A stretch of 36,693 nucleotides of DNA from Ardenticatenales bacterium. GTDB lineage: Bacteria > Chloroflexota > Anaerolineae > Epilineales > Epilineaceae. The stretch spans positions 1 to 36,693 of the forward strand of contig JADYYS010000047.1 of the NCBI GenBank assembly GCA_020853525.1. The letters are read 5' to 3'. Of this stretch, positions 20,118-20,849 are shown piece by piece (positions within the stretch are counted from its first letter, which is position 1; each line of letters opens with the position of its first letter). Both the position numbers and the translations under genes were made by a program. A model generated the notes under the pieces. The model was not told the DNA's origin, did not search any database, and saw nothing but the letters and a program-made list of their open reading frames with translations.

Positions 20118-20849
20118 GTGACGATCGTGGCTGATGCCGGTCCGCTGCGAGGCGACGAGACGCGGCGCGACCGCCGGTCGATCCGGCTGGCGCGGTACGA
20201 CTACGCGCGGCCGGGGGCGTACTTCGTGACGGTGGTGGCGGCGGGGCGGGAGTGGGTGTTTGGGGAGGTGGTGGGTGGGGTGATGCGGTTGAGCCCCATT
20301 GGCGAGATCGTGCGGACCTGTTGGGCCGCGATCCCGGATCACCACCCAAGCGCAACCCTCGACGCCCACGTCATCATGCCCAACCACATCCACGGGATCC
20401 TGATTCTAGGTGGTGTAGGGGCACGGCATGCCGTGCCCATCGTTGACCCCGCCGCCAACCCCCGCCACCACGCAACCGCGTCGGGATCGGACGCCGGGGG
20501 CGATGATGTGCCCGATGCGTGGGCACGGCATGCCGTGCCCCTACACGGCGGGGGTGGCGACATCGGACGGAAATGGGCGTCGGACGACGGGGCGGCGGGT
20601 GGCAGTGAACGGTTCGGGCGGCCGGCGATGGGGACGCTTCCGACGGTCGTTCGATCGTTCAAGGCGGCTTCGACGCGGCAGGTCAACGCGCTGCGTGTAG
20701 CCCCTGGCAGCCCCGTCTGGCAACGCAACTACTATGAACACGTCATCCGCACCGATGAATCCCTCCACCGCATCCGCCAGTACATCGCCGACAATCCGCT
20801 GAAGTGGGATCTCGACCGGCTGAACGGTCTGGCGAAGGGCTCGCACTGA
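20118..20849 (+). CDS. REP-associated tyrosine transposase (RAYT, Y1/IS200-like) with internal REP pair
   Basis: 243 residues from GTG 20118. RAYT hallmarks are present: LARYDYARPGAYFVTVVA at the N-terminus, the metal-binding HUH motif in MPNHIHGILIL (His-Ile-His), and NYYEHVIRTDESLHRIRQYIADNP, whose tyrosine is the likely nucleophile. Such enzymes cut and join single-stranded REP palindromes and are usually domesticated. Unusually, about 45 residues between the HUH motif and GTLPTVVRSFKAASTRQVN are encoded by a segment holding two inverted copies of a GTAG-flanked 20-bp palindrome, which adds ARHAVP twice. The insertion falls in a loop that varies in the family and keeps the frame. The stop overlaps the following GNAT start (TGATG). 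Confidence 0.9.
   Translation: MTIVADAGPLRGDETRRDRRSIRLARYDYARPGAYFVTVVAAGREWVFGEVVGGVMRLSPIGEIVRTCWAAIPDHHPSATLDAHVIMPNHIHGILILGGVGARHAVPIVDPAANPRHHATASGSDAGGDDVPDAWARHAVPLHGGGGDIGRKWASDDGAAGGSERFGRPAMGTLPTVVRSFKAASTRQVNALRVAPGSPVWQRNYYEHVIRTDESLHRIRQYIADNPLKWDLDRLNGLAKGSH
20415..20438 (+). repeat. REP-like element, GTAG plus perfect 20-bp palindrome (copy 1)
   Basis: GTAG (20415-20418) is followed at once by the perfect palindrome GGGCACGGCATGCCGTGCCC (20419-20438). The foot tetranucleotide GTAG next to a palindrome is the standard REP layout recognised by RAYTs. Confidence 0.85.
20521..20544 (-). repeat. REP-like element, inverted copy 2
   Basis: The same 20-bp palindrome lies at 20521-20540, followed by CTAC (20541-20544), so this copy is inverted relative to copy 1. 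The two copies bracket 82 bp, giving a 130-bp REPIN-like unit inside the RAYT reading frame. Confidence 0.85.

Follow-up and report, generated by a model that had tools for sequence, protein, structure and literature searches.

A RAYT gene of an Ardenticatenales bacterium holds an in-frame, REPIN-form pair of REPs in a loop predicted to be disordered

The 36,693-nucleotide contig JADYYS010000047.1 of an Ardenticatenales bacterium, referred to here in its full length as the window, contains a gene that encodes a repetitive extragenic palindrome (REP)-associated tyrosine transposase (RAYT, or TnpAREP), a Y1 enzyme of the HUH type. Two REPs lie in inverted orientation inside its reading frame, which is the arrangement of a REP doublet forming a hairpin (REPIN). 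The palindrome GGGCACGGCATGCCGTGCCC is found exactly at positions 20419-20438 and 20521-20540, and the tags face outward, with GTAG at 20415-20418 on the forward strand and CTAC at 20541-20544, leaving a spacer of 82 bp. A preliminary description of this locus had proposed such a nested pair within the RAYT coding sequence, and the coordinates bear it out. As that description had also stated, the frame remains open through both palindromes and both copies are translated as ARHAVP; the distance from GTAG to CTAC is 130 bp (approximately 43 codons), in line with the insert of 45 residues that had been proposed. Two matches to GGGCACGGCATGCCGTGCCC with no more than three mismatches were obtained in 0 of 100 dinucleotide shuffles, which rules out a chance origin of the palindromes. 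Further copies of GTAGGGGC were sought in the window and none was found elsewhere in it, and thus this RAYT has internal REPs without a flanking copy of the same REP family.

The assignment of the gene to the RAYT family, also made in the preliminary description, is supported by the fold comparison, while the profile matches stay below their cut-offs. The protein matched the NCBIfam model NF047646 (REP_Tyr_transpos) with 64.2 bits (E 1e-17, under the cut-off of 80) and the Pfam model Y1_Tnp with a score of 15.3, below the cut-off of 23. The NF047646 match is split into two stretches, probably because the variable loop interrupts the protein, and with scores lowered below the cut-offs, apparently by this loop, automatic annotation may overlook RAYT genes of this kind. 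A phmmer search of the protein against the PDB gave no match, whereas a fold search did: the top Foldseek match of the predicted fold was 4er8, a RAYT-REP hairpin complex (probability 1.00, E 5.3e-5). This E. coli TnpAREP shares the fold, the HUH motif and the single tyrosine, but its chain has 165 residues and is without the long loop, compared to 243 residues in the window RAYT. The HUH motif and the tyrosine region are intact, as had been claimed, since MPNHIHG is present and H90, H92, Y222 and N226 are invariant in an alignment of 26 sequences. Y222 is predicted by analogy to be the catalytic tyrosine, and its spacing to N226 (Y+4) is the same as that of Y115 and N119 in E. coli TnpAREP. 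In the AlphaFold2 model, most core blocks have pLDDT values of 78-98, while residues 100-165, which sit between the strand at 90-97 and the helix at 174-192, fall below 50. With an insertion between beta3 and alphaC and an in-frame REP between HUH and Y, the protein resembles TnpAREP subclass 2.4, which includes RAYT group 4 of Bertels and shares the variable beta3-alphaC loop (Quentin et al. 2018, PMC6006769).

Table 1. Features of the RAYT gene and its nested REPs in the window
Feature	Position	Strand	Remarks or basis
RAYT/TnpAREP gene	20118..20849	+	243 amino acids, GTG start, open frame, NF047646 match, Foldseek 4er8
HUH motif MPNHIHG (residues 87-93; H90, H92)	20376..20396	+	26-sequence alignment
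Variable loop between beta3 (HUH strand) and alphaC, approximately residues 100-165	20415..20613	+	Predicted disordered (AlphaFold2)
First REP: GTAG and 20-bp perfect palindrome, read V-G-A-R-H-A-V-P	20415..20438	+	Sequence
REPIN spacer, 82 bp, coding	20439..20520	.	By eye, no obvious likeness to the spacers of other genomic pairs
Second REP, inverted: palindrome and CTAC (GTAG on the - strand), read W-A-R-H-A-V-P-L	20521..20544	-	
Conserved WQRNYYEHVI block	20718..20747	+	W201, Q202, R203 and Y205 invariant (alignment)
Predicted catalytic Y222	20781..20783	+	Invariant column; catalytic role by analogy
N226, partner of Y222	20793-20795	+	Invariant column in alignment

The nested pair is predicted to form a strong hairpin, as had been expected of the transcript. 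A folding energy of -100.4 kcal/mol (z = -4.5) was obtained for the RNA of positions 20400-20560, with 0 of 200 shuffles equally stable, and the same stretch folds strongly as single-stranded DNA (z = -6.0). Hairpin control is known for IS200-type transposases, and this fold is consistent with a putative autoregulation in which the nested REPIN, as an mRNA hairpin or as a binding site for the RAYT, would keep expression low. However, a stable fold results automatically from any nested palindrome, and the pair is located between HUH and Y rather than in the 5′ untranslated region or at the start codon, so there is no obvious control point. Autoregulation is therefore a quite improbable explanation of the nesting; it would be compatible with the reading preferred below, for which no dedicated regulatory role is needed.

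To place the pair among its relatives, 73 parsed RAYTs from many phyla were compared. The homologues had been ordered by their similarity to the window protein, which may favor loop-bearing members, and REPs were detected with a fixed tag window that missed some longer stems (for example in L112), which makes the counts lower bounds. A tagged palindromic REP lies in the loop between HUH and Tyr in at least 56 of the 73 RAYTs. The density of tagged palindromes was 4.58 per kb in the loop, 0.10 in the N-terminal half and 0.96 in the C-terminal part, and around the genes it was 1.21 per kb in the 5′ flank and 0.25 in the 3′ flank; the loop exceeds the N-terminal half approximately 46-fold (binomial p about 3e-22). 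Among the complete-frame RAYTs of relatives in the same class, a palindromic REP, different in sequence from one RAYT to the next, follows the HUH motif in most cases, and many of the internal REPs of the homologues are single 28-bp "double foot" elements of the form GTAG...CTAC that start 5-9 residues past the HUH motif. The preliminary description had held that RAYTs normally have REPs around them and had treated the nesting as unusual and the insert as possibly unique to this gene; these views must be given up for this subclass, in which an internal REP is the common state. Nor is the same insert found in homologous RAYTs as an ancestral, non-palindromic sequence.

Quentin et al. (2018, PMC6006769) present the internal REP as a feature unique to TnpAREP subclass 2.4 and suggest a central deletion in inverted dimers as a possible origin of double-foot REPs. 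The window RAYT differs from most of its relatives in holding a REPIN-form pair with its 82-bp spacer instead of the single 28-bp element, and it represents the dimer at the place where relatives hold double-foot REPs. Two RAYT remnants, L110 around 1637-1664 (G011:C66) and L211 around 1225-1250 (G007:C292), break at the internal REP; one consists of the 3′ half only, from the REP onward, and the other of the 5′ half only, to just past the REP, as if the internal REP were a breakpoint.

The REP family was then followed across the source genome (G000, 4.27 Mb) by searching for sequence patterns and retrieving stretches of it. As the preliminary description had anticipated, the palindrome recurs throughout the genome, with 71 copies at two or fewer mismatches, 58 of which have the exact GTAG tag. 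Among the 70 copies fetched, 30 make up 15 outward-facing pairs with exact tags, whose spacers measure 28-258 bp; further pairs either face inward or have altered tags (the shortest spacer of the latter being 26 bp), and approximately 27 copies are single. REPINs as described by Bertels and Rainey (2011, PMC3116915) likewise consist of two inverted REPs with GTAG outward in many genomic copies. In this genome, by comparison, near-identical palindromes flank spacers of 26-258 bp, and one copy is inside the RAYT itself. Both the length and the sequence of the spacers differ greatly from pair to pair, whereas nearly every 20-bp palindrome is the same, a pattern pointing to homogenisation of, or strong selection on, the palindrome. 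Two other REP families, GTAGGGGCGACGCATGCGT and GTAGGGGCGAAGCAATTGC, also have many copies in this genome, and no RAYT carrying either was seen.

Intragenic REPs are common in this genome. In a codon-usage test the same REP was in frame in ten further genes, making the RAYT one of eleven and ruling out that intragenic REPs are confined to the RAYT. By Pfam, the ten are carB (in the linker before the oligomerisation domain), dnaE, asparagine synthase, homoserine dehydrogenase, a Wzt-type ABC protein, three PMT/PMT_2-type mannosyltransferases, a membrane protein with a PTPS_related domain and an ECF/ABC gene. The housekeeping genes carB, dnaE and asparagine synthase (L075, L079 and L076) hold the REP in frame as GARHAVP. 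These hosts, and the intragenic REPs known in other species (PMC3733652), would fit a passive insertion, in which REPs land anywhere, only in-frame copies in tolerant loops persist, and the RAYT loop has no link to the RAYT's own REP. Rickettsia palindromic elements and other intragenic REPs (PMC3733652) are similar in being in-frame palindromic repeats in unrelated genes, but they differ from the present case, where one of the hosts is the presumed mobilising enzyme itself and the association is repeated across phyla. Against passive insertion stand the excess of REPs in the loop over the N-terminal half of the RAYTs, the agreement of palindrome type with the RAYT core, and the REPs that exist solely within their RAYT, the last two of which are given below. 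Passive insertion into the RAYT loop is disfavoured by our data, and we regard it as unlikely.

The same palindrome is not always read in the same frame. It is read as VGARHAVP in the window RAYT and VGARHAVPL in the L157 RAYT, and in the other frame as GRGTACRAPT in L131 and L145, as RRGTACRAPT in L112 and as RGTACRAP in G023 as well. Since two reading frames are used for one palindrome, the thing that recurs is the DNA and not the peptide. Selection of ARHAVP as a protein motif might have been suspected from the in-frame copies of this genome, 10 of 11 of which are read in the ARHAVP frame. However, a TAG on the tagged side closes one of the two remaining frames, disorder is predicted for the loop, and related RAYTs read the palindrome as RGTACRAP or have wholly different palindromes. 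Selection at the level of the peptide is largely refuted by the use of two frames and has hardly any probability left.

Palindrome type also follows the enzyme. The distance between palindrome half-sites was correlated with the distance between RAYT core proteins, computed without the loop (n = 53, Mantel r = 0.33, 0 of 2000 permutations), a correlation that fits vertical inheritance and joint horizontal transfer alike. In a tree with few columns, palindrome types follow clades that cross phyla; GGTTCGCGAACC, for example, is found in Cyanobacteriota, Chloroflexota, Myxococcota and Planctomycetota.

In some cases a REP was found only in its RAYT. A second RAYT of this genome (L098, G000:C6:41734-42462) embeds another REP, GTAGGGGCGAAGCATCCGC, and all three exact copies in 4.27 Mb, plus one copy with two mismatches, are inside this gene. 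The gene has two REPIN-like pairs of this REP, the first of which follows the HUH motif, whereas the second lies between alphaC and the WQRNYY block. G023 has the exact 24-mer, and also a REP of the GTAGGGGCGGGTCT type, each solely inside a RAYT, and in 15 relatives, 2 of 8 loci of the 24-mer family are within RAYT genes or remnants (expected < 0.01). These cases suggest that a RAYT may bring its REP along on arrival and found a population from it. Taken with the core correlation and the two reading frames, these RAYT-confined REPs suggest that the internal REP is the cognate REP of the enzyme, maintained as DNA.

The explanation that we consider probable is that a subclass 2.4-like RAYT has its cognate REP, in this case a REPIN-form inverted pair, within a tolerant loop that joins the HUH strand to helix alphaC and is predicted to be disordered. 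Because the loop is disordered in the model and lies outside the conserved core, in-frame REPs would be tolerated there, and the palindrome would be retained as DNA, being the same repeat as that dispersed in approximately 70 genomic copies. As gene and REP are on one stretch of DNA, the RAYT would travel between genomes with its substrate aboard, and the internal copy could seed new REPs through single-strand cleavage at GTAG. Several observations weigh against this explanation. No tagged REP was detected in the loop of 17 of the 73 RAYTs, nor in two of the four RAYTs of this genome (C8 and C59), and tolerance alone accounts for part of the pattern, given the ten other genes with the same REP in frame. 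In addition, the nearest tree neighbors of the window RAYT (L142 and L183) have different palindromes; given this and a placement without strong support (94/85), the REP of the window RAYT may once have been replaced.

The nested REP is thus real but known in kind, having been described in 2018 (PMC6006769). The present analysis adds the cross-phylum count, the use of two reading frames, the core correlation and the RAYT-confined REPs, and some of these may already be contained in the supplements of that paper. An apparent oddity is removed, since RAYTs of this group usually have a REP inside. For each RAYT of this kind, the internal palindrome identifies the probable cognate REP, an assignment that is difficult to make by other means. 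More tentatively, RAYTs of the subclass 2.4 type might be self-contained seeders, whose internal REP is a conserved functional part that co-evolves with DNA specificity and lets a transferred RAYT found a new REP population; we hold this to be possible but doubtful. Genomes with REPs only in a RAYT make the origin of REP populations testable, and if RAYTs of this type are such seeders, genomes in which REP copies exist only inside the RAYT would represent the founding stage.
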